The notes beneath the pieces are model-generated. The model made no database searches. It was not told the origin of the DNA and saw nothing but the letters and a program-made list of their open reading frames with translations. From NCBI GenBank assembly GCA_010906935.1, contig JAAFHC010000010.1, forward strand, positions 3,017 to 38,660: a stretch of 35,644 bases of DNA, in the 5' to 3' direction. Positions 1 through 31,280 of this stretch are shown one piece after another. The position numbers and the translations under genes are program-made. The number at the start of each line of letters is the position of its first letter. Within the stretch, counting starts at the first letter, position 1. Source of the stretch: Gelidibacter sp. (lineage in GTDB: Bacteria > Bacteroidota > Bacteroidia > Flavobacteriales > Flavobacteriaceae).

Positions 1-257
1 TAGGTTATAGGTTATAGGTTATAGGTTATAGGTTATAGGTTATAGGTTATAGGTTATAGGTTATAGGTTATAGGTTATAGGTTATAGGTTAAAGCTCAAA
101 GCTATAAGTTAAAAGCTCAAAGTTAAAAGCTCAAAGTTGAAAGCTCAAAGTTGAAAGCTCAAAGTTGAAAGCTCAAAGTTGAAAGCTCAAAGTTGAAAGC
201 TCAAAGTTAAAAGCTCAAAGTTAAAAGTTAAAAGTTAAAAGTTAAAAGTTAAAAGTT
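1..257. repeat. Period-7 tandem repeat array (TAGGTTA, then AAAGCTCAAAGTTR, then AAAAGTT)
   Basis: Bases 1-91 are thirteen uninterrupted copies of the heptamer TAGGTTA, and the array probably continues beyond the left edge. It passes into a 14-bp composite unit (GAAAGCTCAAAGTT and close variants, about 110-215) and then into simple AAAAGTT heptamers up to 257. The unit changes but the 7-bp phase is kept, which suggests growth by slippage from related heptamers. No reading frame or hairpin explains it. The same periodicity recurs in other intergenic gaps of this window. Confidence 0.95.
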
Positions 258-407
258 CATTAAATGTTAGAAGTTAAATAAAAGAGTAAAGGTTTGTAAA
301 AAGAAAGACTGCAATACAAAAATAAAGAGTTACACGAATAAACAGTTAAACAAATAAACGATTAAACACTAAACAGTTAAAAAAATAAACACATAAACAT
401 TCATCAC
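258..407. other. AT-rich leader upstream of lpdA
   Basis: This stretch is strongly A-rich and holds loose repeats ending in TAAAC (for example ATAAAC and TTAAAC spaced 7-9 bases apart between 340 and 400). I see no coding sequence and no clear TAnnTTTG box. It must contain the lpdA translation start region and possibly its promoter, but I cannot place either more exactly. Confidence 0.5.
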
Positions 408-9164: not shown

Positions 9165-9254
9165 CACTTTAAAAGCATACAAAAAACATTTTGGTAATTT
9201 ATTTTATTATTTTGCTTGGAGGTCAGTATTTTGGATTGTTGGATTTGAACTTTA

Positions 9255-9337
9255 AATCCTATCCCCAACCCCTGACACGTTAAGCCCGCCTGTTCGGCCG
9301 GCAGGTAAACTTTCCGAAGGAAAGTGCGTTTGATTGA
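9255..9337. repeat. Dispersed hairpin repeat (TATCCCCAACCCCT family), copy 1
   Basis: Starts with AATCCTATCCCCAACCCCT, contains a GC-rich partial palindrome (9284-9305), then a perfect 7-bp hairpin ACTTTCC-GAA-GGAAAGT (9309-9325) and a GTTTGATTGA end. The same head, hairpin and tail occur three times at 12630-12908 and once at 22109-22163. It lies in the gap between the lipoprotein gene and the helicase gene. Confidence 0.85.
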
Positions 9338-9378
9338 AATTGGTATGTGATGACCTCTTTGAACATTTACAATTCCCT

Positions 9379-12557: not shown

Positions 12558-12622
12558 TTGTTCCCTTCGGCCCTGCTCAGGGTAAAGGTTGTTGGCTTTT
12601 TAATTTATAACAAAAAACTTTT
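12558..12622. other. Spacer with small palindrome after the ABC-F gene
   Basis: Holds a CCCTG-CT-CAGGG palindrome (12571-12582) within CCCTTCGGCCCTGCTCAGGG, a type of short GC-rich repeat familiar from Bacteroidota intergenic DNA. There is no T run, so it is not an obvious terminator. Confidence 0.45.
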
Positions 12623-12957
12623 AACTTGGAATCCTATCCCCAACGCCTGCCACGGCAGGCAAGCTTTTCCGACGAAAAGGGAGTTTGATTGAGTTAAGAA
12701 TTTTATTTACAACAAAAACTATTAACTTGGAATCCTATCCCCAACCCCTACCATCGTAGCCAAGCTTTTCCGACGGAAAGGGAGTTTGATTGAGTTAAGA
12801 ATCTTATTTACAACAAAAACTTTTAACTTTTAACTTTTAACTTGGAATCCTATCCCCAACCCCTACCACGGCAGGCAAGCTTTTCCGACGGAAAGGGAGT
12901 TTGATTGAGTTAAGAATTTTATTTACAACAAAAACTTTTAACTTTTAACTTTTAATA
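12623..12957. repeat. Three-unit tandem array of the hairpin repeat with heptamer spacers
   Basis: Three copies of a ~100-bp unit begin at 12623, 12724 and 12839 with AACTTGGAATCC. Each unit has the TATCCCCAACCCCT head, a small palindrome, a CTTTTCC/GGAAAGG-type hairpin, GTTTGATTGAGTTAAGAAT, and ACAACAAAAAC leading into TTTTAAC heptamers. The spacing is 101 and 115 bp; the 14-bp difference equals two extra TTTTAAC heptamers. It fills the gap between the convergent ABC-F and wzc-like genes. No coding sequence. Confidence 0.93.
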
Positions 12958-17236: not shown

Positions 17237-17281
17237 ATGAAACGAGCCATAACAAATTTTGATACACACAGAAATAATTAA
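17237..17281 (+). CDS. Possible 14-residue micro-ORF in element copy A
   Basis: Reads MKRAITNFDTHRNN. Its stop codon TAA shares its last base with the ATG of the next micro-ORF (TAATG). The same residues (ITNFDT) form the C-terminal tail of HisD, where the element copy is fused to hisD. Translation is unproven; the support is the stop/start overlap and conservation of the frame between copies. Confidence 0.35.
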   Translation: MKRAITNFDTHRNN

Positions 17282-17324
17282 TGGCGAACAGCAGCTGTAC
17301 CAATAAAAAATACAATATAAACAG
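17237..17324 (+). repeat. Start-codon-abutting 88-bp element, copy A
   Basis: One of three copies in the window (others at 28401-28487 and 27227-27335, both on the minus strand). It runs from ATGAAACGAGC to TAAACAG and ends exactly at the start codon of the adenosyltransferase gene; the next three bases AAA are also shared. By hand count this copy differs from copy B by eight substitutions and one inserted C over 88 bases. The inserted C shifts the frame so that this copy opens with its own ATG reading frame. The centre GGCGAACAGCAGCTGTACC is an imperfect palindrome. Confidence 0.92.
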
Positions 17325-17328
17325 ATGA
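17281..17328 (+). CDS. Possible 15-residue micro-ORF overlapping the PduO-type gene start
   Basis: Reads MANSSCTNKKYNINR. It starts in the TAATG overlap with the preceding micro-ORF, and its stop codon overlaps the adenosyltransferase start codon as ATGA (17325-17328). This arrangement suits translational coupling. The element copy in front of hisC has the equivalent frame MANSSCTNKK. Unproven. Confidence 0.35.
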   Translation: MANSSCTNKKYNINR

Positions 17329-17897
17329 AAATATACACAAAAACCGGAGATAAAGGCACAACTTCTCTTTTTGGGGGAACAAGGGTACCAAAATATCATT
17401 TAAGAATAGAAGCATACGGCACTGTAGATGAACTAAATTCGTATATCGGCTTAATTCGCGATCAAAAAATTGATGCGCATACCACTAAAATTCTGTTAAA
17501 GATTCAACATGAATTGTTTACATTGGGTTCCATGTTGGCAACGCCTCCTGAAAAAGAAATTTTAAAAAGCGGAAAGGAACGCTTAAATATTCATAAAATT
17601 TCGGAGGAATCTGTAGCGCTTTTGGAACGTGAAATTGACTTCATGAATGAGTCCTTGCCAGAAATGACACATTTTATTTTACCAGGAGGACACAGCACCG
17701 TGTCATTCTGTCATATCACACGCTGCATTTGCAGAAGAGCCGAGCGAATCACCACACAATTAAGTGACGAAAGCACCATAAATCCGAAAATTTTAGTATA
17801 TTTAAACAGGCTTTCCGACTATCTTTTTGTGCTGGCACGGAAGTTGACTATTGACAATCAGGCCCAAGAAATTCCTTGGATTCCTGAGAAAATATAG
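17325..17897 (+). CDS. PduO-type cob(I)yrinic acid a,c-diamide adenosyltransferase
   Basis: A 190-residue ATP:cob(I)alamin adenosyltransferase that makes coenzyme B12. The N-terminal ATP-binding motif is TKTGDKGTTSLFGG (5-18). The YGTVDELNSYIG segment and the C-terminal RCICRRAERITTQL and NRLSDYLFVLAR helices are characteristic of this trimeric helical-bundle family. The start is supported by the motif position and by the repeat element that ends exactly there. No other cobalamin genes are in the window, so it probably recycles salvaged B12 for enzymes such as methylmalonyl-CoA mutase. Confidence 0.93.
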   Translation: MKIYTKTGDKGTTSLFGGTRVPKYHLRIEAYGTVDELNSYIGLIRDQKIDAHTTKILLKIQHELFTLGSMLATPPEKEILKSGKERLNIHKISEESVALLEREIDFMNESLPEMTHFILPGGHSTVSFCHITRCICRRAERITTQLSDESTINPKILVYLNRLSDYLFVLARKLTIDNQAQEIPWIPEKI

Positions 17898-17935
17898 TAA
17901 GTTCTTTTTTATTTTGAAATAAAAGGATAAATAGC

Positions 17936-17965
17936 TTGCCCAATTGAGTAAAAAAATTATTTTTG
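17936..17965 (+). promoter_or_regulatory. Promoter of the DUF2795 gene
   Basis: TTG at 17936-17938 and TATTTTTG at 17958-17965, separated by 19 bases, match the Bacteroidota promoter pattern TTG-N17-19-TAnnTTTG. The start codon follows 23 bases later. Confidence 0.65.
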
Positions 17966-17988
17966 CAAAAATTTAATACGAAGAAGTT

Positions 17989-18210
17989 ATGTATTGGACA
18001 CTAGAATTAGCATCATATTTGGCGGATGCGCCTTGGCCTGCAACAAAAGATGAATTGATTGATTATGCGATTAGAACAGGAGCGCCTTTAGAAGTTGTTG
18101 AGAACCTTCAAGAGATTGAAGATGAGGAAGAAAATTTCGAGTCTATTGTCGAAATTTGGCCCGATTACCCTTCAGAAGAAGATTATCTTTGGAACGAAGA
18201 TGAATATTAA
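17989..18210 (+). CDS. DUF2795 domain small acidic protein
   Basis: A 73-residue protein, very acidic at its C-terminus (EIEDEEENFESIVEIWPDYPSEEDYLWNEDEY in two stretches). The N-terminal part (LASYLADAPWPATKDELIDYAIRTGAP, in two stretches) has the DUF2795 pattern, a small helical domain of unknown function. It has its own promoter and terminator. Its place just before secA is one I recall from other Flavobacteriaceae, but no role in secretion follows from that. Confidence 0.85.
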   Translation: MYWTLELASYLADAPWPATKDELIDYAIRTGAPLEVVENLQEIEDEEENFESIVEIWPDYPSEEDYLWNEDEY

Positions 18211-18224
18211 AAAATACCAATGCT

Positions 18225-18254
18225 AAAAAAGTCTCGTTAGAGACTTTTTTTTTT
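18225..18254 (+). terminator. Intrinsic terminator after the DUF2795 gene
   Basis: Perfect 11-bp stem (18225-18235 with 18240-18250, loop GTTA) with a T run to 18254. It separates the small gene from secA, so secA needs its own promoter in 18255-18410. Confidence 0.9.
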
Positions 18255-18356
18255 GCTTAATCAGTGAATTGTTTAAACTTTTTTCAATTATAATTTAAGC
18301 CAGAATTAAAACAATTTAACTTTAAAAAAATTAACTTTACCGGCTATTAAATAACA

Positions 18357-18380
18357 ATGTAAATTACAGTAATTTTACAT
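18357..18380. promoter_or_regulatory. Near-perfect dyad upstream of secA
   Basis: ATGTAAATTAC (18357-18367) faces GTAATTTTACAT (18369-18380), an inverted repeat with one bulged base, ending 30 bases before the secA start. It has no T run. It could be an operator or a 5'-UTR hairpin; function is unknown. Confidence 0.4.
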
Positions 18381-18410
18381 GTAATTATTAAAAAATTTGA
18401 CACCTATATT

Positions 18411-21400
18411 ATGAGTATCATCAATTCAGTTCTTAAAATTTTTGTTGGAGATAAAAACAAAAGAGATTTGTCATTGCTGCAGCCGATTGTTGCAAAAGTG
18501 AATGCTTTTGAAAAAGAGATTACAAACCTGACAAACGATCAATTACGAGAAAAAACAGCTTACTTTAAGCAAAAAATAGCAGAAGACACCAAGGAATATA
18601 CTTCAAAAATCAATAAATTAAAAGAAGAAGTTGTTGACGCAAATATAGACCGTAAAGAAGAAATTTACGGTGAAATTGACAATCTGGAAGATGATTTATA
18701 CCATGCTTCAGAAAAAACATTGAACGAAATTATGCCAGAAGCATTTGCAGTAATTAAAGAAACTGCCAAACGCTTTACCCAAAACAATACCATTACGGTT
18801 ACAGCAACTCCGTTTGACCGTGAACTTTCTGCAACACGAGACAATATTGTCCTTGAAAACGATAAAGCCATTTGGGCCAATAAATGGGATGCTCAAGGAA
18901 AAGAAGTAACCTGGGATATGATTCATTACGATGTGCAACTTATTGGTGGATCGGTATTGCATCAAGGTAAAATTGCCGAAATGATGACAGGTGAAGGAAA
19001 AACCTTGGTTTCTACCTTGCCGGTGTATTTAAATGCGCTTACCGGAAAAGGCGTGCATTTGGTCACCGTAAATGATTATTTGGCAAAACGTGATGCTGCC
19101 TGGATGGGACCAATTTATGAATTCCACGGATTAAGGGTTGATTGTATTGATCACCACGAGCCAAATTCTGACGCGCGAAGAAAAGCCTACAACGCCGATA
19201 TTACTTACGGCACAAACAACGAGTTTGGTTTTGATTATTTGCGTGATAATATGGCGCATTCTCCAAATGATTTGGTGCAACGCCCACCCAATTACGCCAT
19301 TGTGGATGAGGTCGATTCTGTTTTAATTGATGATGCGCGTACCCCTTTAATTATTTCTGGTGCAACGGCCAATGCCGACCGCCACGAATTTAACGAGTTA
19401 AAACCAAGTGTGGACAGGATTGTTTCTATCCAAAGAAATTATTTAACCGCTGTTTTGGCCGAAGCTAAAAAATTAATAAGTGAAGGCGACGCCAAGGAAG
19501 GCGGATTTTTATTACTTCGTGTTTATAGGGGATTGCCAAAAAGCAAAGCCTTAATCAAATTTTTAAGTCAGGAAGGCAATAAACAACTCTTGCAAAAAAC
19601 GGAGAATCATTATATGCAGGATAACAACCGTGAAATGCCTAAAATTGATGAAGAGCTGTATTTTGTGATTGATGAGAAAAACAATTCCATTGAGCTGACC
19701 GATAAAGGAATTACCTTTTTATCGGGTGATGACGGCGATGAAAATTTCTTCATTTTACCCGATTTAAGCACTGAAATTGCCCATCTGGAGCGTGAAAATG
19801 ACGCTCCCGAAATTCTCACTGCAAAAAAAGAAGAATTGTACAGAGATTTCAGCATCAAAAGCGAGCGCATTCACACCATGAATCAATTGCTTAAAGCATA
19901 CACTTTATTTGAAAAAGATATTGAGTATGTGATTATGGAAGATAAAATTAAAATTGTTGACGAGCAAACCGGCCGTATTATGGAAGGTCGCCGTTATTCA
20001 GACGGATTGCATCAGGCCATTGAAGCAAAAGAGAACGTAAAAATTGAAGCTGCCACGCAAACGTACGCTACGGTTACGCTTCAAAATTACTTTAGAATGT
20101 ACCGAAAATTGGCGGGTATGACAGGTACTGCTGTTACAGAAGCCGGGGAATTCTGGGAAATTTATAAATTGGATGTGATTGAAGTTCCGAGCAACAGAAA
20201 ATTAGTTCGGGATGACCGTGAAGATTTGGTTTTCAAAACCAAACGTGAAAAATACAATGCCGTTATTGAAGAAATTGAAAATTTGGTGAATTTGGGCCGA
20301 CCAGTATTAGTAGGAACCACTTCCGTAGAAATTTCCGAATTGCTGGGCCGAATGCTGACCATCAGAAAAATAAAACACAATGTATTAAACGCAAAACTTC
20401 ATAAAAGAGAAGCAGACATTGTTGCGGAAGCAGGAAACTCTGGCATTGTAACCATTGCCACAAACATGGCCGGTCGTGGAACCGACATAAAACTTTCAGA
20501 AGAAGTTAAAAAAGCGGGAGGTTTGGCCATTGTGGGTACTGAGCGTCACGATTCCCGTCGTGTAGACCGACAGTTGCGAGGAAGAGCAGGTCGACAAGGA
20601 GATCCGGGTTCTTCACAATTTTATGTGTCATTGGAAGACAATTTAATGCGATTGTTCGGATCAGAACGTATTGCAAAAATGATGGACAGAATGGGACTTC
20701 AAGAAGGTGAAGTGATTCAACATTCCATGATTTCCAAATCCATTGAACGTGCACAACGCAAAGTAGAAGAAAACAACTTTGGTGTTCGTAAACGATTACT
20801 TGAATATGATGATGTGATGAATTCCCAAAGAGAAGTTGTTTACAAACGTCGTCGCCACGCACTTTATGGAGACCGTTTACAGGTAGATATCGTCAATATG
20901 ATTTATGATACCTGTAACTTGTTGGTCAGAGAAAATAAACCATCAAATGATTATCAGAATTTCGAATTTGAATTGATTCGTTTTTCTTCCACCACGGCTC
21001 CTTTCAAAGAAGATGAATTTAAATCGGGTACAGAACAAGAACTTACCGATCAACTTTTTGATGTGGTTTACAAACATTATAAAGAAAAATTAGAACGAAA
21101 TGCAAAAGCTGCTTTTCCGGTAATTAAAGATGTTTATGAAAATCACGGAGAAAAATATGAACGCATTGTAGTTCCTTTTACCGATGGTACAAAAGAATTA
21201 AAAGTAATCACCAATTTAAAAACGGCCTATGAAACTGGCGGTAAAGAGTTGGTAACCGATTTTGAAAAAAATATCACGCTTGCCATTATCGATGATACTT
21301 GGAAAGATCATTTACGACAAATGGATGAACTGAAACAATCGGTTCAAAATGCCACTTATGAGCAAAAAGATCCATTGTTAATTTACAAATTTGAATCATT

Positions 21401-21746
21401 TGAGCTTTTTAATGGTATGCTCGACAAAGTGAATAAAGAAGTATTGTCGTTCTTATTTAAAGGTGAATTGCCTTCTCAAGATGCAACGCGCGTTTTACCG
21501 GCAAGAGAACAGAAACGCGAAAAAGTACAATTAAGTAAAGAAGAATATAGCAATTCAGCACTAAATCAACAAACCAGCCAAACACAAGCGCCAAAAATAG
21601 TTGAAACGATTGTGCGCACAGAGCGAAAAATTGGAAGAAACGAACAAGTGACCATTAAACACGTGCTTTCCGGAGAAAACAAATCGATAAAATACAAACA
21701 AGCAATTCCTTTAATTGATAAAGGCGATTGGGTGTTGGTGGAATAA
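18411..21746 (+). CDS. secA: Preprotein translocase ATPase SecA
   Basis: A 1111-residue motor that drives preproteins through SecYEG. Walker A is TGEGKT (about 193-200), Walker B region [15 protein letters not shown] (about 299), with the preprotein cross-linking domain between the two motor halves, and in NBD2 [26 protein letters not shown] and [18 protein letters not shown]. The length exceeds E. coli SecA (901) mainly through insertions around residues 340-480, usual in Bacteroidota. The C-terminus ends in [18 protein letters not shown] and has no CxCxSGK zinc-binding motif, so SecB-type binding through a zinc tail is absent. Monocistronic, ended by a strong terminator at 21868. Confidence 0.97.
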
Positions 21747-21775
21747 CTATATATGCTTTATTCACAGGTATGAAT

Positions 21776-21857
21776 GTTAAATTGTTATAAGTTAAATGTT
21801 ATATGTTAAATGTTGTATTGTTGAATGTTAAATGTTCGTGTTAAATGTTCGCTTTAA
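21776..21857. repeat. Degenerate GTTNNAR heptamer repeat after secA
   Basis: Consecutive units GTTAAATT, GTTATAA, GTTAAAT, GTTATAT, GTTAAAT, GTTGTATT, GTTGAAT, GTTAAAT, GTTCGT, GTTAAAT, mostly 7 bp. Lies between the secA stop and its terminator. Confidence 0.8.
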
Positions 21858-21867
21858 CTAAATGAAT

Positions 21868-21905
21868 AAAAAAGCTGTCCGAAATGAATTTCGGGCAGCT
21901 TTTTT
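21868..21905. terminator. Strong bidirectional terminator after secA
   Basis: An 18-bp stem (AAAAAAGCTGTCCGAAAT with ATTTCGGGCAGCTTTTTT, one G-T wobble) with six A/T pairs at each base, so both strands give a T run. It can end secA transcripts and also readthrough from the his operon and DUF2461 gene on the other strand. Confidence 0.92.
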
Positions 21906-21980
21906 GGTTAATAATGGTTTTGATAAATTTAACCGAAAACAATCATCAAGTATTTAATATTTTATCCCCTAACCCCAATC

Positions 21981-22103
21981 TCATTAAGTTAAGCTTATAT
22001 ATCATTTTTTGTCCTTCCGAGGTACGAGGAATCTCATAATGCTTTACTAGTTTGTTGCGATTCCTCCTTTGTCGGAATGACAAATATTTCCTTAACTTAA
22101 TGA
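21981..22103. mobile_element. Palindromic MITE-like element with 13-bp terminal inverted repeats
   Basis: Bounded by perfect 13-bp inverted repeats (TCATTAAGTTAAG at 21981-21993, its complement at 22091-22103). Inside is a second inverted pair of 23 bases (22011-22033 and 22059-22081, 18 of 23 positions matching) built on GTCnTTCCGA and GAGGAATC. The 11-mer CCCCTAACCCC occurs directly on both sides (21966-21976 and 22109-22119), like a target duplication. No coding capacity. The inner GTCATTCCGA...GAGGAATC sequence is one I recognise as frequent between genes in Bacteroidota, without a formal name. Confidence 0.7.
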
Positions 22104-22108
22104 CATTG

Positions 22109-22163
22109 CCCCTAACCCCTATCGCGGAAGGTAAACTTTCCAAAGGAAAGGGAGTTTGATTGA
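22109..22163. repeat. Dispersed hairpin repeat (TATCCCCAACCCCT family), copy 5
   Basis: Head CCCCTAACCCCT, perfect 6-bp hairpin CTTTCC-AAA-GGAAAG (22136-22150), and the GGGAGTTTGATTGA tail shared with the copies at 9255 and 12630-12908. The small GC palindrome of the other copies is reduced here to ATCGCGGAAGG. The repeat continues into ATTTATAACAAAATACTTATAAC, then heptamers that contain the stop codon of the DUF2461 gene. Confidence 0.85.
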
Positions 22164-22207
22164 ATTAAGAAAAATATTTATAACAAAATACTTATAACGT
22201 ATAACTT

Positions 22208-22882
22208 TTAACCAACTAAAGATTCTCCATTTAAATCGGTGGTTAGAACGTCGCTCATATAATCCAAATATGGCCGCATTGTCACAAAAGAAGCGACAAC
22301 TTCAGTCAAAAAGTTTGGCGCCAAAACTTCATCATCCGTAAATTCACGTGACACAATAAATTGTTTTAGCCTTATTAAATCGATATTAGGATGGTTCTTG
22401 TCAAAACCTCTTGGTGCCGATTTTACGGCTTCACCCTGTAATTTTTTAAAATGTTTCTTAAAATCCGCCGTATTTACAATCGACCGAATTTCAGTAGCGT
22501 CTGTTTCAAATTCTTTTCTGATGCGTGCCAAATCTTCCTTATTCGGTTCCCAAAATCCGCCAGCCAAAAAGCTTTCACCCGGACTGATATGCAAATAATA
22601 TCCGCCGCGCAATTTGCTCGTTGCCCGCGTAAATTGTCCGCCAAAATGCGATTTAAAAGGCAGCTTGTTTTTTGAAAATCGGACATCTCTATAAATTCTG
22701 AATATTTTTACATTTTCAATAAGGTCAGAAGCTTTTAAATGCTCCATGACTGAAGTATAAAAAGCTTTCACTTTTTTTTGTTCCGCTTCAAAAGTTGGTT
22801 TATGAGCATTAAACCACTCACGATTGTTATTGGCTTTCAGCAATTTTAAAAAATCCAAAGTCGATTTTGAAATTGAAGTCAT
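22208..22882 (-). CDS. DUF2461 (TIGR02453) family protein
   Basis: A 224-residue cytosolic protein of unknown function. It matches the DUF2461 pattern: opening LDFLKLLKANNNREWFNAHKP (in two stretches), then KIFRIYRDVRFSKNKLPFKSHFGG and GGYYLHISPGESFLAGGFW (each longer than shown here in full). Lies 59 bases after hisIE on the same strand and is probably the last gene of the his transcript, though nothing links it to histidine. Its stop codon lies in a TTTTAAC heptamer of the flanking repeat. Confidence 0.85.
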   Translation of the reverse strand: MTSISKSTLDFLKLLKANNNREWFNAHKPTFEAEQKKVKAFYTSVMEHLKASDLIENVKIFRIYRDVRFSKNKLPFKSHFGGQFTRATSKLRGGYYLHISPGESFLAGGFWEPNKEDLARIRKEFETDATEIRSIVNTADFKKHFKKLQGEAVKSAPRGFDKNHPNIDLIRLKQFIVSREFTDDEVLAPNFLTEVVASFVTMRPYLDYMSDVLTTDLNGESLVG

Positions 22883-22941
22883 ATTTTTTTAAGGTATTTG
22901 AAATTAAAAATAATAATTTTTAATTCACAATTCGTAATTTC

Positions 22942-23538
22942 TCAATGTCTTTTTTCTAAAACCTTCACAATATCCTTCAAGGTAAATCCTTTTGCCTGCA
23001 ACAAAATTAGGTAATGAAAAAGCAAATCGGCACTTTCGTTTACAAACAAATCGTCGTTATCATCTTTTGCTTCAATTACGACTTCAACGGCTTCTTCACC
23101 CACTTTTTGGGCAATTTTATTGATTCCTTTTTCAAACAGAGAAGCTACATAACTTTTCTCTGAATTGCCTGCCTCTCGCCTGCTTTTTATCACCTTTTCC
23201 AATTCAGACAAAAATCCGAAAGTTGCTTCGTTTTTTTCTCCCCAGCACGTATCCGTTCCTTTATGGCAGGTCGGTCCAACCGGATTTACCTGAATGAGCA
23301 AAGTATCTTGGTCACAATCATTTTGTACGGAAACCACATTTAAAAAATTGCCGCTTTCCTCGCCTTTTGTCCACAACCTATTTTTGGTTCTGCTGAAAAA
23401 GGTCACCTGATTGGTTTCCAATGTCTTGTCAAAAGCTTCCTGATTCATATAGCCCAGCATCAAGATATTTTTTGTGGTTGCATCTTGAATGATTGCAGGA
23501 ACCAATCCGTCATTATTTTTATTGAAATTTATTTTCAT
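22942..23538 (-). CDS. hisIE: Bifunctional phosphoribosyl-AMP cyclohydrolase / phosphoribosyl-ATP pyrophosphatase
   Basis: A 198-residue fusion catalysing steps 2 and 3 of histidine synthesis. The N-terminal HisI domain has GYMNQEAFDKT, FSRTKNRLWTKGEESGN and the zinc/metal region DCDQDTLLIQV...GPTCHKGTDTCW. The C-terminal HisE domain has the acidic helix EEAVEVVIEAKDD and ADLLFHYLILL. Last biosynthetic gene of the operon, 47 bases after hisF; that gap contains weak GTCNAAA heptamers. Confidence 0.96.
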   Translation of the reverse strand: MKINFNKNNDGLVPAIIQDATTKNILMLGYMNQEAFDKTLETNQVTFFSRTKNRLWTKGEESGNFLNVVSVQNDCDQDTLLIQVNPVGPTCHKGTDTCWGEKNEATFGFLSELEKVIKSRREAGNSEKSYVASLFEKGINKIAQKVGEEAVEVVIEAKDDNDDLFVNESADLLFHYLILLQAKGFTLKDIVKVLEKRH

Positions 23539-23585
23539 TTTATTTTAGTCTAAAGTTTTAAAGTCGAAAGTCGCAATGTAAATAA

Positions 23586-24341
23586 CTAAATTCGTACTTC
23601 AATATTGTTATTTTTAAGTTCTTGTTTTAAATCCATAATTTCAATTTCCTTGAAATGAAATACACTTGCCGCCAAGGCTGCATCAGCTTTACCCATTAAA
23701 AAAGTTTCCACAAAATGCTGCATATTTCCAGCGCCTCCTGATGCAATTATTGGAATATTTACCAATGTGCCCAACTTAGCCAACGCAACATTGGCAAATC
23801 CGTTTTTAGTGCCATCGTGATCCATCGAGGTAAACAGAATTTCTCCTGCGCCGCGTTGTTCCACTTCTTTCGCCCAATCGAATAATTTAATGTTTGTAGG
23901 CACTTTTCCGCCCACCAAATGTACAAGCCATTCTCCGTCAATTTGTTTTGCATCAATAGCAACCACAATACACTGACTTCCAAATTTTGCCGCCAATTCA
24001 TTGATTAATTGCGGATTTTTAACTGCGGAAGAATTGATGGAAACCTTATCAGCTCCCGAATTCAATAGCAATTCCACATCTTCAACCGAGGAAATTCCAC
24101 CGCCGACCGTAAACGGAATATTTATTTTTTGGGCAACGCGCATCACCAATTCCGCCAATGTTTTTCGTTTTTCTTCCGTAGCCGAAATATCCAAAAAAAC
24201 CAATTCATCGGCGCCATTCTGTGCGTAAATTTCAGCCAATTCTACAGGATCGCCGGCATCTCGCAAATCGACAAAATTAACGCCTTTAACGGTTCTTCCG
24301 TTTTTTATGTCTAAACAAGGTATGATTCTTTTTGTTAACAT
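23586..24341 (-). CDS. hisF: Imidazole glycerol phosphate synthase cyclase subunit
   Basis: A 251-residue (beta-alpha)8 barrel that, with HisH, makes imidazole glycerol phosphate and AICAR. Visible marks: [19 protein letters not shown] with the catalytic Asp at residue 11, VGGGISS and the phosphate-binding IASGGAG segment, with the second catalytic Asp in [13 protein letters not shown] feeds back to purine synthesis, whose gene purL lies at the other end of this cluster. Separated from hisA by 84 bases holding heptamer repeats. Confidence 0.97.
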
Positions 24342-24350
24342 TTCTTTTTC

Positions 24351-24385
24351 GTTAAAAGTTAGAAGTTAAATGTTAGAAGTTTTTT
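24351..24385. repeat. GTTNNAR heptamers between hisA and hisF
   Basis: GTTAAAA, GTTAGAA, GTTAAAT, GTTAGAA, GTTTTTT in exact 7-bp phase. Further heptamer-like CTAATATTTAATATTTAAC follows up to the hisA stop codon. Confidence 0.8.
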
Positions 24386-24425
24386 CTTGACTTTGTACTT
24401 CTAATATTTAATATTTAACTTTAGA

Positions 24426-25190
24426 TTAATGATTCAATATAAAATTTTCCAGCTGCTTCATACTAATTTTATGTTCATAAATAGCTTTTCCTATAATGGT
24501 GCCTTCACAGCCCATTTCAGCCAATTTTGGCAATTCATCAAAGGTGGAAATTCCTCCTGAAGCAATTAGTTTTAAGCCATTTGCTTCTGATAACTTCTCG
24601 ACTGCGCTCGAAGTGACGGAACATTGATTGATGATTTTTTTATACAAGTCAAAACTCGGACCTCCCAGCATACCGTCTTTGGCAATATCTGTACAAATTA
24701 CATACTGAATTCCTTTGCTTTGGTAATACTTTATAAAAGGAATCAAATCTTCATTCGAATCTTCCAACCAGCCTGAAACTGCTACTTTTTCGTTATTTGC
24801 ATCTGCTCCCAAAATAATTTTTTCAGGACCATAATGGGCTATCCATTTTTCGAAAACTTCTCTATTTTTCACAGCAATACTTCCTCCGGTAATTTGGTTT
24901 GCACCACTTTCAAAAGCTATTTTTAAATCGGCGTCCGATTTCAATCCGCCACCAAAATCAATTTTTAAGGTTGTTTTTGAAGCGATTTCTTCGAGAATTT
25001 TGTGATTGATAATCTTGCTCGATTTTGCGCCATCCAAATCTACCAAGTGTAAATATTTTATTCCGTGAGCTTCAAACATTTTAGCCACTTCAAGCGGATT
25101 CTCATTATAAATGATCTTGGTATTGTAATCGCCTTTTGAGAGGCGCACACATTTTCCTTCTATGATATCTATTGCTGGTATGATTCTCAT
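24426..25190 (-). CDS. hisA: Phosphoribosylformimino-AICAR ribotide isomerase (HisA) with an inserted palindromic repeat
   Basis: A 254-residue (beta-alpha)8 barrel isomerase, step 4 of histidine synthesis. Catalytic-Asp start [17 protein letters not shown], second Asp in CTDIAKDGM, phosphate-binding GGGLK and ASGGIS. Residues 192-200 (VTSSAVEKL) sit between the DLYKKIIN helix and the [10 protein letters not shown] strand and are encoded by an imperfect palindrome of the ACTTCGAGCGCAGTCGAGAAGT type; homologues I recall have only a few residues at this place, and this protein is about ten residues longer than usual. All active-site motifs are intact, so it should be functional. Confidence 0.96.
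24593..24617. repeat. Palindromic repeat inserted in hisA
   Basis: On the minus strand GTCACTTCGAGCGCAGTCGA then GAAGT, with outer arms ACTTC/GAAGT and inner TCGA/TCGA. I recognise this as a very frequent intergenic palindrome in Bacteroidota. Here it is in frame within hisA and encodes VTSSAVEKL. Confidence 0.7.
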
Positions 25191-25195
25191 GAAAA

Positions 25196-25223
25196 GTTTA
25201 AAGTTTAAAGTTTAAAGTTTAAA
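25196..25223. repeat. GTTTAAA heptamers between hisH and hisA
   Basis: Four exact GTTTAAA units fill the 14-base gap and extend into hisH, so the last HisH residues (NFKL) and its stop codon are written in the repeat. Confidence 0.85.
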
Positions 25224-25840
25224 AAGTTTTTCAAAATTTGTTCTCCAACATCACCGCTTTTTTCTGGGTGAAACTGTACTCCGTAAAAATTGTCTTTTTG
25301 CAATGCTGAAGCATATTTTATTCCATACTCAGTGGTTGCAATGGCTTCATCATTCAATGGAACATAATAACTATGCACCAAATACATATACTCGTTTTCA
25401 GCAATTCCTTCGAATAGTTCTGATTTCAAGTTATAAATTTCGTTCCAGCCAATTTGAGGAACTTTCATTGTATTGCTAAACTTAACAACATCAACATCAA
25501 AAATTCCCAAACCTTTCGTGTCGCCTTCTTCGCAATAATTACACATTAATTGCATTCCCAAACAAATACCTAAAACAGGCTGTTTTAAAGTAGGAATCAA
25601 TTTATCCAAACCAGTTGATTTCAATTTTTTCATCGCGCTGCTTGCCTCGCCCACACCGGGAAAAATGACTTTATCCGCATTGATGATTTCTTCAACATTG
25701 TCGCTTAAAACGGCTTCATAGCCCAAACGCTGGATTGCAAATTTTATGGACTGTATGTTTCCTGCACCGTAATTTATAATGACAATCCCCCCAGCACCCG
25801 AAGGGGGAGTTGACGTTGTTTGTTGATTATTTTGACCCAT
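25205..25840 (-). CDS. hisH: Imidazole glycerol phosphate synthase glutaminase subunit with repeat-derived N-terminus
   Basis: A 211-residue class I glutamine amidotransferase that supplies ammonia to HisF. Nucleophile in GICLGMQL, catalytic His/Glu in QFHPEKSG. The usual family start ([13 protein letters not shown]) appears only at residue 19; residues 1-18 ([18 protein letters not shown]) are extra, and their last part is encoded by a CCCCC...GGGGG palindrome (25786-25808). No ATG, GTG or TTG lies between that palindrome and the conserved core, so the extension is probably translated. The C-terminal residues come from GTTTAAA repeats. Both ends of the gene thus abut repeats. Confidence 0.95.
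25786..25808. repeat. C5/G5 palindrome in the hisH N-terminal extension
   Basis: CCCCC (25788-25792) and GGGGG (25803-25807) form a hairpin with loop AGCACCCGAA. On the coding strand it reads TCCCCC-type DNA giving TPPSGAGG. This is another short GC-rich palindrome type common in Bacteroidota intergenic DNA. Confidence 0.7.
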
Positions 25841-25855
25841 TATTTCATTTATTTT

Positions 25856-25995
25856 GTTTCAGGTTTCAAGTTTCAAGTTTCAGGTTTCAGGTTTCAGGTT
25901 TTAAGTTTCAGGTTTCAAGTTTCAGGTTTCAAGTTTCAGGTTTCAGGTTTCAGGTTTCAGGTTTCAGGTTTCAGGTTTCAGGTTTCAAGTTTCAA
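25856..25995. repeat. Twenty-unit heptamer array GTTTCAG/GTTTCAA between hisB and hisH
   Basis: Exactly 140 bp of 7-bp units, nearly all GTTTCAG or GTTTCAA with one GTTTTAA. Because 7 is not a multiple of 3, all three frames stay open through it and would give a seven-residue repeat (FQVSGFR-like), but no start or homology supports a protein. Confidence 0.95.
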
Positions 25996-26038
25996 GTTCG
26001 AGAGCTGAACTTTAAACTTCTAATATTTGATATTCAAC

Positions 26039-26087
26039 TTTTAACATATAACTTTTAACATATAACATTTAACATATAACGTATAAC
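26039..26087. repeat. TTTTAAC/ATATAAC heptamers after hisB
   Basis: Seven units in exact phase (TTTTAAC, ATATAAC, TTTTAAC, ATATAAC, ATTTAAC, ATATAAC, GTATAAC), ending two bases before the hisB stop codon. They are the reverse complement type of the GTTNNAR heptamers. Confidence 0.9.
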
Positions 26088-26089
26088 CT

Positions 26090-27226
26090 TTAAAGAGTTC
26101 CTTTCGTGCTTGGTAAAATCATTTTTTCTGAATCTCTTTTTACGGCAGCTTTTATGGCTTTTGCAAATGCTTTAAAAATGGCTTCAATTTTATGATGCTC
26201 ATTTGTTCCTTCGGCTTTGATGTTAATATTGGCTTTGGCACCATCAGAAAAAGATTTAAAAAAATGATAAAACATCTCTGTGGGCATTTTCCCAACCATT
26301 TCACGCTTGAATTCTGTTTCCCAAACCAACCAGTTTCTTCCGCCGAAATCAATCGCCACTTGCGCCAAACAATCGTCCATTGGCAAGCAAAATCCGTAAC
26401 GCTCAATACCCAATTTGTTTCCCAGCGCTTTTGCAAAAACTTCACCAAGCGCAATTGCAGTATCTTCTATGGTATGGTGCTCATCCACTTCCAAATCACC
26501 TTTAACCATAATTTCCAAATCCATTTGTCCGTGACGCGCAATTTGGTCGAGCATATGATCAAAAAAAGCAATTCCGGTATCGATGTTGCTTTTGCCTGTT
26601 CCGTCAAGGTTTAGGTTGATGTAAATATCAGTTTCATTCGTTTTTCTTTCTGTTGAAGCCGAACGTTCTGCAAGTTTCAAAAATTCATAAATTATTTTCC
26701 AATCCGTTGTTTGCAAAATAATAAAAGCATCAAGTTCTTCTCTCTTTGAAGAAATTTCAGCGCTGCCCAAAGCTTCGTCGGCGTTGATAAAAATCGCTTT
26801 TGCTCCCATATTTTTAGCCAATTCCACATCGGTTATCCTATCGCCAATCACAAAAGAATTTGCCAAATCATAAGCCGGATTGTCCATATATTTTGTCAAC
26901 AAACCTGTTGCAGGCTTTCGGGTTGGCGCATTTTCGTGCACAAATGTTTTATCAATTAACACTTCTTTGAAAACAACGCCTTCATTTTCAAAAGCTTTCA
27001 TGACCAAATTATGCACTGGCCAAAAGTTAATTTCCGGGTGTGAATCGGTTCCTAAACCATCTTGGTTGGTGACCATTACCAATTCAAAATCTAGTTCCGA
27101 AGCAATTTTTCCCAAGTATTGAAAGACTTTCGGATAAAATTCCAATTTCTCAAAACTGTCTAATTGATAGTCGCTTGGTTCCAAAACCATCGTTCCGTCT
27201 CGGTCTATAAAAAGTATTTTTTTCAT
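26090..27226 (-). CDS. hisB: Bifunctional histidinol-phosphatase / imidazoleglycerol-phosphate dehydratase
   Basis: A 378-residue fusion. The N-terminal HAD phosphatase domain begins [13 protein letters not shown], with the nucleophile Asp in FIDRDG and the [11 protein letters not shown] metal site. The C-terminal dehydratase domain has [26 protein letters not shown] and its repeat [15 protein letters not shown]. It performs steps 6 and 8 of the pathway. I place the start at 27226, where homology begins; the frame stays open upstream to a TTG at 27292 because the repeat element in front (copy C) happens to be in frame, which would add 22 residues including PPAGRQA. Confidence 0.95.
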
Positions 27227-27335
27227 CTGTTTAAATTTTATTTTTTTAGCGGTAACAGCTGCAGCCTGCCTGCCGGCAGGCGGGTTCGCCAATAATCATT
27301 CCTTTATGTATCAAAATTTGTTATGCTCGTTTCAT
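27227..27335 (-). repeat. Start-codon-abutting element, copy C (with nested palindrome), before hisB
   Basis: Same element as 17237-17324 and 28401-28487, ending exactly at the hisB start codon. At the palindromic centre it carries about 22 extra bases containing CCTGCCGGCAGG (27266-27287 region), a self-complementary repeat whose translation PAGRQA is a familiar contaminant of Bacteroidota protein N-termini. The nested insertion shows that one repeat class has entered another. Confidence 0.9.
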
Positions 27336-27347
27336 TTTATTCCTTTA

Positions 27348-28400
27348 TTATTTGAAAGATTGCAATACTTCGATTAATTTTTTATTTTCTTGTGCTGTCC
27401 CAATGGTAAAACGCAAACAATTTTCGCATAAAGGCTGGGTTGTTCGGTTTCTAATCACTATTCCTCTGTCAATCAATTCGTTGTAACGTTTATTGGCATC
27501 ATCCACTTTGACCAAAATGAAATTGGCTTCCGTAGGATAAATCTTTTCCACAAATTTCACTAGCAACAATTCTTTCAACAGTTCATCTCTTTGCGCTATA
27601 ATTGATTCAATTTCAGCTTTCATGTTGTCTTTGTCTTTCAATCTTTCCAAAGCTCTTTTTTGAGACAATTCATTCACGTTGTAAGGTGGTTTAATTTTGT
27701 TTAAAACTGCAATAATTTCTTTGGAAGCATAACAAATTCCCAACCGTATTCCTGCCAAGCCATAAGCCTTAGAAAGTGTTTGCGTAATGACCAAGTTAGG
27801 ATATTCATCAAATTCATTGATCCAACTTTCTTTTTTTGAAAAATCGATATACGCTTCATCAATCACCACCAATCCTTTAAAATATTGTAATAAATAAGCC
27901 ACGCTTTCATCTGAAAATGAATTACCGGTTGGATTGTTTGGCGAACACAAGAAAATAATTTTCGTATTTTCGTCAATAGCCTCCACGATTTTTTCAATTT
28001 GCGGCTGAAAAGTATCTGAAAGCAACACTTCCCTGTTTTCAACGGCATTGATATTGGCTAAAACCCTATACATTCCGTAGGTTGGTGGAAGCGTAATAAT
28101 ATTATCCGTTTTTGGTTCACAAAAGGCCCTGAAAATTAAATCGAGGACTTCATCGCTTCCGTTTCCCAATAAAATTTGTTTTTCAGAAACTCCTTTTAAT
28201 TTTGCCAATGCATTTTTCACGGAAATTTGTTGCGGATCCGGGTAGCGATTTACGCCATTTACAAACGGATTTTCATTGGCATCCAAGAAAATCATATCTG
28301 CCGTGTCGAAATCCCCAAATTCATCGCGAGCCGACGAATAAGGTTTCATTTGCTTCACGTTTTCCCGAACCAAATTATTTATATTGAAACTATTTTTCAT
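27348..28400 (-). CDS. hisC: Histidinol-phosphate aminotransferase
   Basis: A 350-residue PLP-dependent class I/II aminotransferase, step 7 of the pathway. N-terminal LDANENPF and RYPDPQQ, the PNNPTGN motif, DEAYIDF, the PLP lysine in TQTLSKAYGLAGIRLG, and the C-terminal RFTIGT arginine that binds substrate phosphate/carboxylate. Length is normal. It is flanked on both sides by copies of the same ~88-bp element in the same orientation. Confidence 0.96.
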   Translation of the reverse strand: MKNSFNINNLVRENVKQMKPYSSARDEFGDFDTADMIFLDANENPFVNGVNRYPDPQQISVKNALAKLKGVSEKQILLGNGSDEVLDLIFRAFCEPKTDNIITLPPTYGMYRVLANINAVENREVLLSDTFQPQIEKIVEAIDENTKIIFLCSPNNPTGNSFSDESVAYLLQYFKGLVVIDEAYIDFSKKESWINEFDEYPNLVITQTLSKAYGLAGIRLGICYASKEIIAVLNKIKPPYNVNELSQKRALERLKDKDNMKAEIESIIAQRDELLKELLLVKFVEKIYPTEANFILVKVDDANKRYNELIDRGIVIRNRTTQPLCENCLRFTIGTAQENKKLIEVLQSFK

Positions 28401-28487
28401 CTGTTTACATTTTATTTTTTATTGGTACAGCTGCTGTTCGCCATTAGTCATTCCCTTTTGTATCAAAATTTGTTATGCTCGTTTCAT
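28401..28487 (-). repeat. Start-codon-abutting 87-bp element, copy B, between hisD and hisC
   Basis: Runs from ATGAAACGAGC to TAAACAG and ends exactly at the hisC start codon. Its first 44 bases are in frame with hisD and encode the HisD tail NETSITNFDTKGND; the hisD stop codon overlaps an ATG (TAATG) that opens a ten-residue frame MANSSCTNKK inside the element. Closest to copy A at 17237-17324, which is in the opposite orientation. Confidence 0.92.
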
Positions 28488-29769
28488 TCTCAATCGCTTT
28501 TAAACGCAAGGTTACCGCATTTTTGTGTGCATCCAAACCTTCTGCTTCCGCCATCAACTCAATGGTTTTTCCAATATGCTGAATGCCTTTTTCTGAAATT
28601 TTCTGAAAGGTCATCGATTTTAAAAAAGAATCGAGGTTCACGCCCGAATACGCTCTTGAATAACCGTTTGTCGGCAAGGTATGGTTGGTTCCTGAAGCAT
28701 AATCACCAGCACTTTCCGGCGTATAATTCCCAATAAAAACTGAACCTGCGTTTTCAATATTTTCGATATAAAAATCGTTGTCGTTGGTGCAAATTATAAA
28801 GTGTTCCGGACCATATTCATTGATGATTTCCATGGCAATTTCTTTGTCTTCCACAAAAATTAATTTTGAATTTTCTATGGATTTTACAGCTATTTTTTTA
28901 CGCGACAATAAAGATAGCTGGATTTCAATTTCCTTTTCAACTTCTTTTAGCATTTCCATGGAAGTCGATACCAAAATCACCTGGCTGTCGGTTCCGTGTT
29001 CAGCCTGGCTCAACAAATCGGAAGCCACAAAACTTGCATTTGCCGAGTCATCGGCAACGATTAACAATTCACTTGGTCCGGCCGGCATGTCAATCGCCAC
29101 GCCGTATTTGGTAGCCAATTGTTTTGCAACAGTAACGTACTGATTTCCGGGACCGAATATTTTATACACCTTCGGAATTGTTTCAGTTCCAAATGTGAGT
29201 CCGGCAATGGCCTGAATTCCGCCCACTTTTAAAATTTTGGTGATCCCGCAAAGTTGTGCTGCGTAAAGAATGGCCGGATTAATTTCTCCTTTTTTATTGG
29301 GTGGCGAACATAATACAACCTCTTTACAACCTGCAATTTGCGCCGGAATGGCCAACATCAACACCGATGAAAACAAAGGTGCGGTGCCACCCGGAATATA
29401 CAATCCCACTTTTTGGATCGGTCTTTTTTCTTGCCAACATTCCACGCCTTCAGCGGTTTCCACAAAAACTTTGGCTGTTTTTTGGGCCAAATGGAATTTT
29501 TCAATAGCTAATTTTGCTTGCTGAATGGCCTCTTTTAATTCATCGGACAAAGCTTTTTCCGCTTCAAAAATTTCTTTGGCAGAAACACCTAAATCATCCA
29601 AAGAAACACCATCAAAAATTGCGGTATATCTTTTTATGCCATCGTCGCCGTTTCTTTTGACATCATCAAAAATAGAAGTCACCGTATTTTCAACAGCTTC
29701 AATGGTTTGTGTGGGTCTTTTTAAAATTGAGAGCCATTCGCTTTTTGGCGGATTTAATATTTTTTTCAT
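28444..29769 (-). CDS. hisD: Histidinol dehydrogenase with element-derived C-terminal tail
   Basis: A 441-residue zinc enzyme oxidising histidinol to histidine in the last two steps. Marks: GLYIPGGTAPLFSSVLML, GPGNQYVT, PAGPSELLIVAD, LLSQAEHGTDSQ with zinc ligands, and GTNHTLPTNGYSRAYSG. Family members normally end soon after HKNAVTLRL; here about 14 more residues (ETSITNFDTKGND) follow, all encoded by repeat element copy B. The core is intact, so activity is expected. Confidence 0.96.
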   Translation of the reverse strand: MKKILNPPKSEWLSILKRPTQTIEAVENTVTSIFDDVKRNGDDGIKRYTAIFDGVSLDDLGVSAKEIFEAEKALSDELKEAIQQAKLAIEKFHLAQKTAKVFVETAEGVECWQEKRPIQKVGLYIPGGTAPLFSSVLMLAIPAQIAGCKEVVLCSPPNKKGEINPAILYAAQLCGITKILKVGGIQAIAGLTFGTETIPKVYKIFGPGNQYVTVAKQLATKYGVAIDMPAGPSELLIVADDSANASFVASDLLSQAEHGTDSQVILVSTSMEMLKEVEKEIEIQLSLLSRKKIAVKSIENSKLIFVEDKEIAMEIINEYGPEHFIICTNDNDFYIENIENAGSVFIGNYTPESAGDYASGTNHTLPTNGYSRAYSGVNLDSFLKSMTFQKISEKGIQHIGKTIELMAEAEGLDAHKNAVTLRLKAIENETSITNFDTKGND

Positions 29770-31110: not shown

Positions 31111-31199
31111 TGGGCGTTCCCTTGCAGGTCGCGCTTTCCGTTCCATATTTTTAGCGGTAAAAACCACTAAAAAGTATTTCACTTCAATCACTAACGCAA
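31111..31199. repeat. Probable dispersed intergenic repeat with hairpin
   Basis: GGGCGTTCCCTTGCAGGTCGCGCTTTCCG, stated here as GGGCGTTCCC and GCGCTTTCCG segments, is followed by a hairpin TTTTTAGCGGT-AAAA-ACCACTAAAAA (31148-31173, one mismatch) and TTTCACTTCAATCACTAACGC. I recall very similar sequences between genes in other Flavobacteriia, but only one copy is present here, so the repeat status is from memory rather than seen. Confidence 0.5.
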
Positions 31200-31280
31200 A
31201 TTGAATTACGATTCGGGATTTCCAATTTTAGAATTTTAATGTATCATAAAAGAACAGGTTGCAATTATTTTTTTTAGGCA

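Follow-up and report, generated by a model that had tools for sequence, protein, structure and literature searches.

A short repeat bounded by ATGAAA at gene start codons in Gelidibacter and other Flavobacteriaceae

Mobile repeats that are small and non-autonomous form a known kind of DNA. Miniature inverted-repeat transposable elements (MITEs) are short non-coding sequences that occur in many copies, each bounded by a short direct repeat. Repetitive extragenic palindromes and bacterial interspersed mosaic elements (REP/BIME), which go with the Y1 enzymes called REP-associated tyrosine transposases (RAYT), and palindromic elements derived from IS200/IS605 are small, foldable and non-autonomous, reach many copies per genome and lie in one orientation to a short target. 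Integron cassettes form head-to-tail arrays with a common short core (GTTRRRY), and the core half-site of attC is paired with an internal inverse half-site. Here we describe a repeat found in three copies in a stretch of 35,644 nucleotides of Gelidibacter sp. (contig JAAFHC010000010.1 of assembly GCA_010906935.1; hereafter the window), where each copy ends exactly at a start codon. The repeat has exact boundaries, empty sites at three loci, enrichment at gene starts, identical and tandem copies, and covariation at one base pair of a helix that includes the start codon. It is probably an insertion element, short, non-coding and non-autonomous, that is specific for ATGAA(A), mostly where this is a start codon plus second codon, with the leader and pairing roles proposed below.

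The element shares with MITEs its small size, non-coding nature, multiple copies and terminal direct repeat, but it has no terminal inverted repeats, keeps a fixed ATGAA(A) target and has no parent transposon that we could find. It resembles REP/BIME and the IS200/IS605-derived elements in all the traits named above. It differs from them in that Y1 genes, where examined, seldom have it nearby (2 of 40 stretches), in that several genomes bearing it lack Y1, and in sitting on start codons, not between genes. Its likeness to attC consists in tandem units with a common short core and a terminal site paired to an internal inverse segment; however, its basic unit holds no gene, its core is ATGAAA and its copies are mostly scattered. 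The A-rich, Kozak-like initiation regions of Bacteroidetes, in the passages of PMC6847099 that treat them, also have As at -6, -12 and -13, but they are features of individual genes, while here the region belongs to an inserted repeat with C at -3. Among the matches listed in the open full-text literature, a scope that leaves out most subscription papers and all bioRxiv preprints, no description of the element was found; thus a family that is aimed at start codons, restores them and carries a covarying pairing was not found described, although its general kind is known.

The repeat unit and its copies

The repeat unit is ATGAAA-body-ATGAAA, with a body mostly 81-84 bp long that nested palindromes sometimes enlarge, and the 5' ATGAAA heads every copy in the window (Table 1). 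The initial annotation had placed three copies at 17237-17324 (+), 28487-28401 (-) and 27335-27227 (-), each bordering the start codon of a gene for a PduO-type adenosyltransferase, hisC or hisB; all three were found there, the base after each copy is the A of the gene's ATG, and Pfam agrees with the gene names. That annotation had also set the repeat apart from ordinary intergenic repeats, which holds for the start-codon boundary, while copy B extends into the 3' end of hisD and that copy is therefore not purely intergenic. Copy C is longer than copies A and B because a 20-nt palindrome is nested inside it, and a palindrome of this or another kind occupies the same place in many other copies.

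Table 1. Copies of the repeat, their host genes and other features of the window
Feature	Coordinates	Strand	Description
Copy A	17237..17330	+	5' ATGAAA 17237-17242, body 17243-17324, 3' ATGAAA 17325-17330 = start of cobalamin adenosyltransferase gene
Internal segment of copy A	17292..17297	+	CAGCTG, one base off CATCTG; opposite terminal CAGATG 17322-17327
Copy A host gene	17325..17897	+	PduO-type cobalamin adenosyltransferase; PF01923, E 5.9e-63
Copy B	28395..28487	-	5' ATGAAA 28487-28482, 3' ATGAAA 28400-28395 = hisC start; end of hisD rewritten
Copy B host gene, hisC	27348..28400	-	HisC-type aminotransferase; PF00155, E 4.1e-59
hisD open reading frame	28444..29769	-	final codons (..ETSITNFDTKGND) encoded by copy B
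Copy C with nested palindrome	27221..27335	-	5' ATGAAA 27335-27330, 3' ATGAAA 27226-27221 = hisB start
REP-like palindrome in copy C	about 27264..27283	-	CCGCCTGCCGGCAGGCAGGC, 20 nt; same position in other copies
Copy C host gene, hisB	26090..27226	-	HAD + IGPD; PF00475, E 1.5e-61
Flavo-1 RNA (RF01705)	31123..31202	-	55.9 bits, gathering 42; upstream of his operon
Other repeat family	9244..9362; 12602..12944; 22137..22188		spacing about 100-115 bp, partly CCTGCC..GGCAGG palindromes; three near-tandem copies at 12602-12944
Heptad tandem repeats	4..264; 25843..26010		GTTATAG/GTTAAAA and TTTCAGG types

When copy B was used as blastn query against the window's own genome (3.3 Mb in 296 contigs), 42 matches including itself were obtained, the best after itself with E 7e-33, and a 22-nt core allowed up to 3 mismatches matched at 43 sites and its reversed control at 0; the repeat thus occurs far beyond chance. 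A profile search, with duplicates removed, raised the own-genome count to 53 copies. At the 3' end, 40 of these run into a start-like open reading frame (at least 60 codons, or at least 40 if it runs off the stretch), 2 run into another copy and 8 end at ATGAA with no such frame, while 1 lacks ATGAA and 2 are cut short.

Matches were present in 42 of 120 related genomes, and a sequence-only covariance model built from 25 diverse copies matched 112 of 299 Flavobacteriaceae genomes, both counts including the own genome, and 101 of 236 genera; since at most 14 candidates were scored per genome with the model, copy numbers there are lower bounds. The search in this and other genomes suggested by the initial annotation thus points to a large and widespread repeat family, apparently undescribed. 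Lutibacter accounts for 80 of the at least 112 pattern-match stretches listed, while a pattern match in Lachnospiraceae (L120) was rejected as an element by the profile. Genes named by eye as coaD-like and ddl-like (L018, L017, L331, L364) carry the element both in the own genome and in other genera, and represent either shared old insertions or repeated independent ones.

Evidence for insertion at the start codon

Orthologous loci of the three host genes were compared, 30 per gene, from 38 genomes with a match, the own locus included. At hisC the empty site of L254 reads ..gattgaga-ATGAAA-AATAGTTAC.., while the window reads ..gattgaga-ATGAAA-body-ATGAAA-AATAGTTTC.., and a single ATGAAA with no element was also found at hisB in L258 and at pduO in L294. 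Between these best empty sites and the filled loci of the window, the difference is the body plus one ATGAAA. In L254, read by eye, hisD ends with ..AIENEK and a stop, and the insertion of copy B replaced these last codons. The hisC and hisB loci are each filled in 1 of 30, the own only, and the pduO locus in 12 of 30 including the own, one of the 12 being weakly matched, which fits an older pduO insertion now decaying in some lineages. These alignments indicate that the element inserts at a gene's own start codon, after which a start codon still heads the gene.

The flanks of other copies agree with this picture. ATGAAA stands on both sides in 278 of the 332 copies with both ends readable and only once in the best empty sites, so that the short direct repeat expected of a MITE on insertion was found; it may be a duplication of the target or be encoded by the element. 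Upstream of the 5' ATGAAA, 264 non-tandem copies are enriched in A at positions -12 to -10 and -3/-2, as are genuine ATGAAA starts in the same loci (n=389) and unlike other ATGAAA sites there (n=2399), and the 5' ATGAAA therefore looks like the old start codon. End differences comprise 10 copies with 5' ATGAAA and 3' ATGAAT/C/G, 5 with 5' GTGAAA and 3' ATGAAA, 3 with 5' ATGAAA and 3' GTGAAA, and 1 (L372) with TTGAAA on both sides; most can be explained by later mutation.

Altogether 370 distinct copies were collected, of which 353 had an adequate 3' end and were assigned to classes in two sets. In the main set (loci up to L326, mostly Lutibacter with a few from other genera) 164 copies lie at starts, 37 are intergenic, 7 genic, 64 tandem, 8 without ATGAA and 4 at an edge, against 372 start, 340 intergenic, 1853 genic and 12 edge sites for background ATGAAA in the same loci (n=2577). 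The other-genera set, which consists of best-scoring copies, has 58 start, 3 intergenic, 1 genic, 4 tandem, 2 without ATGAA and 1 edge, against a background of 27, 29 and 166 start, intergenic and genic sites and 3 at an edge. For start versus intergenic, Fisher's test gave an odds ratio of 4.1 (p = 2e-14) in the main set and 20.8 (p = 5e-9) in the other genera. Copies are thus not scattered without regard to start codons, and together with the empty sites at genes' own ATGAAA this enrichment supports the suggestion, already made for the three window copies, of an element targeting gene starts.

The 3' end is CANATG, in which ATG is the start codon, and an internal CATNTG about 30 nt upstream pairs with it. 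In 74 3' halves, picked for diversity with rare end types first, 88% of the cells of the seven-pair helix are paired, and the central pair is CG in 39, GC in 25, UA in 4 and AU in 3, plus two wobbles, a covariation score reached by 0 of 500 shuffles. Both motifs occur in 290 distinct copies; at this position 278 of them are complementary (184.5 expected), 6 form a wobble and 6 neither, and all four Watson-Crick pairs are represented as the variable base covaries. For 120 sampled leaders folded as RNA at 37 C, the mean probability of the central pair was 0.52 and the start codon was unpaired 0.30 of the time; predictions for single-stranded DNA gave similar pairing, therefore the fold alone cannot tell RNA from DNA. 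RNAalifold gave no consensus structure on 25 diverse copies. At many loci (PHDE records such as L118, L148, L172 and L178) a palindrome variant, TCCCGAATTTTCGGGA, replaces the pairing segment.

As to what the gene receives, the Lutibacter-type 3' end reads AAAATTTAAACAG before the ATG, with A at -6, -12 and -13. In Flavobacterium johnsoniae, A at -3, -6, -12 and -13 are positive determinants of translation initiation, as stated in the relevant passages of Baez et al. (2019, PMC6847099). Judged by these positions, the element may plausibly be a portable translation start region. Ten own-genome host genes were placed in Pfam, the window's three and seven others of CoaD-, LpxD-, RodA-, DapA-, TrpE-, RlmH- and LipB-like families, these names being our own reading of the families. 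Several of these genes are usually essential, and therefore the leader presumably must allow expression. Read from the 5' ATG, 165 of 298 copies reach a stop in at most 5 codons and the others later; the position of the stop is not consistent enough for a conserved leader peptide, a candidate we rejected.

Probable movement of the element and competing explanations

Signs of mobility include identical copies before different genes in G245, a genome with 45 full or partial matches, and tandem copies that have one ATGAAA in common. There is also a longer composite unit (L111, L127, L137, L156, L159, L174, L183, L188, L191, L192, L210), in which a 22-codon reading frame (MKRLQQNHLTEKRKMLSVPFDK) lies between ATGAAA and the element and the unit again starts with ATGAAACG. 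Its inner ATGAAA has become ATAAAA in 9 of 11 readable junctions, as if, once the inner end was damaged, the function of boundary had passed to the next ATGAAA upstream. In three own-genome copies at contig ends (L055, L065, L314) the inner palindrome seems interrupted, at assembly breaks, by one mobile element with inverted ends AGCTACCGTGT.. and ..ACACGGTAGCT.

We propose that the element inserts in one orientation at ATGAA(A), most often where this is the start codon plus second codon, after which ATGAAA would stand at both ends, the 5' one marking the old start position and the 3' one being the gene's start codon. The A-rich 3' end would become the gene's new ribosome-loading leader, and insertion would thereby be tolerated even before usually essential genes. 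Pairing of CATNTG with CANATG, in single-stranded DNA or in the transcript, may be needed for recognition or processing of the element, and movement would occur in trans through a site-specific recombinase or transposase.

Several observations weigh against this proposal. No mobilising enzyme and no autonomous copy were seen in the loci and genomes inspected. Copies outside genes decay unseen, and the search models favour intact 3' ends, so that part of the start-codon preference may come from selection and decay; the eight own-genome copies ending at ATGAA with no start-like frame also stand against it. The closer hisB relatives (e.g. L254, L255, L256) begin with ATGAAG, not ATGAAA, which leaves the ancestral sixth base uncertain, and the site may have been ATGAA plus G. 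Covariation is confined to 1 of the helix's 7 pairs, the internal motif is missing from 29 of the 328 copies that end in CANATG, at least 15 copies have a palindrome in its place, and CAGCTG, present in 97 of 341 copies, makes a G-A mismatch at the next pair. The C at -3 demanded by the pairing contrasts with the A favoured for translation.

A parent was sought through one-ended copies, or copies with far-apart ends, in the own genome and G245, and with patterns for the left and the right end in six genomes (in one, neither pattern matched); no autonomous parent was found by either route. Enlarged copies, where examined, contained nested palindromes, another mobile element or other repeats, and no gene of the element's own. 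Among 275 distinct bodies no convincing terminal inverted repeats were found: 2.28 of 12 positions were identical at the exact termini, while the best 15-nt terminal inverted match (7.75 versus 6.84 shuffled) was in slight excess. Phage and viral collections queried with both element types, and the plasmid collection queried with the non-Lutibacter type, gave no match. Rfam had no match around copy A (E up to 1) or at eight loci from other genera (E up to 0.1), and on the window at gathering scores it reported only Flavo-1, away from the element copies.

The most serious competing explanation takes the start preference as a by-product: an element with target ATGAA(A) would insert anywhere, and selection would remove or erode the copies that are not at starts. 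We give this somewhat less than an even chance. In its favour, ATGAAA is itself common at starts (372 of the 2577 background sites), genic insertions would be lost and detection favours intact copies; against it, the odds ratios remain at 4.1 and 20.8 when intergenic ATGAAA alone is the comparison. Another explanation, which the initial annotation had named as one that would refute its reading, is a single ancestral his-operon spacer, duplicated; while the his operon holds 2 of the 3 window copies, the 53 copies in the own genome, the spread over genera and the hisB and hisC sites that are empty in 29 of 30 orthologous loci reduce this to a negligible chance. If instead the repeat were a portable RNA leader kept for regulation, CAUNUG would sequester the start codon and the host would thereby control the translation of many genes. 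Covariation of one pair in the helix spanning the start codon, the 6 wobbles among 290 copies and the RNA fold probabilities favour such a role, which we nevertheless regard as improbable: the diverse copies gave no consensus structure, single-stranded DNA is predicted to pair about equally, variants lacking the pairing persist, hisC and hisB each carry the element in 1 of 30 orthologous loci, and the host proteins (ten by Pfam, others by eye) have no evident common function.

A further possibility, a version of the insertion reading and not its opposite, is that the mover is a Y1 tyrosine transposase of IS200/IS605 or REP/RAYT type, with ATGAA as the 5' target and the 3' ATGAA as an element-encoded cleavage site beside a hairpin. 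The 5' target with a matching 3' end, the tandem insertion, the foldable single strand near the 3' end and the 5 copies with 5' GTGAAA and 3' ATGAAA would suit it, and PF01797 was found in 15 of 18 other same-genus genomes with a best element match below E 1e-30, against 4 of the 19 remaining. However, shared ancestry could explain this association, the GTG cases are equally explained by later transitions, and L372 has TTGAAA at either end. Of 20 copy-bearing genomes, 7 lack Y1, though they may have had it in the past, and G030, with at least 14 copies, lacks it too. A direct linkage of the element to Y1/RAYT genes, which are adjacent to it in G001, was rejected, as, of the 40 stretches taken around Y1 matches (two overlapping), 2 contain a copy; the flanks of 19 Y1 genes, viewed by eye, are mostly other palindromes, one (L233) having the element upstream. 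We consider a Y1 mover rather unlikely, if a little less so than the regulatory leader. Y1/RAYT-like genes at L234, L236, L240, L243, L251 and L252 are flanked by their own distinct palindromic repeats.

Significance for Flavobacteriaceae

Beyond a non-autonomous insertion element, the repeat might represent a class of mobile elements that aim at the translation start codon itself and find it by base pairing between an internal guide, CATNTG, and the terminal CANATG. We put this forward tentatively, as an idea with the balance against it; if it were true, insertion would be nearly harmless, as the element would bring its own substitute start codon together with an initiation region already in place. 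Because the base pairing with the start codon covaries, a targeting mechanism of this kind is open to direct test.

While selfish DNA normally avoids genes, members of this family would land on start codons and survive by leaving one behind, and dozens of unrelated genes per genome would thus be given the same 5' leader. The family would thereby offer natural repeated experiments on what the Bacteroidetes ribosome needs to start. As the tail of hisD illustrates, the element can alter protein ends and start annotations, and the family points to a mobilising activity across Flavobacteriaceae.

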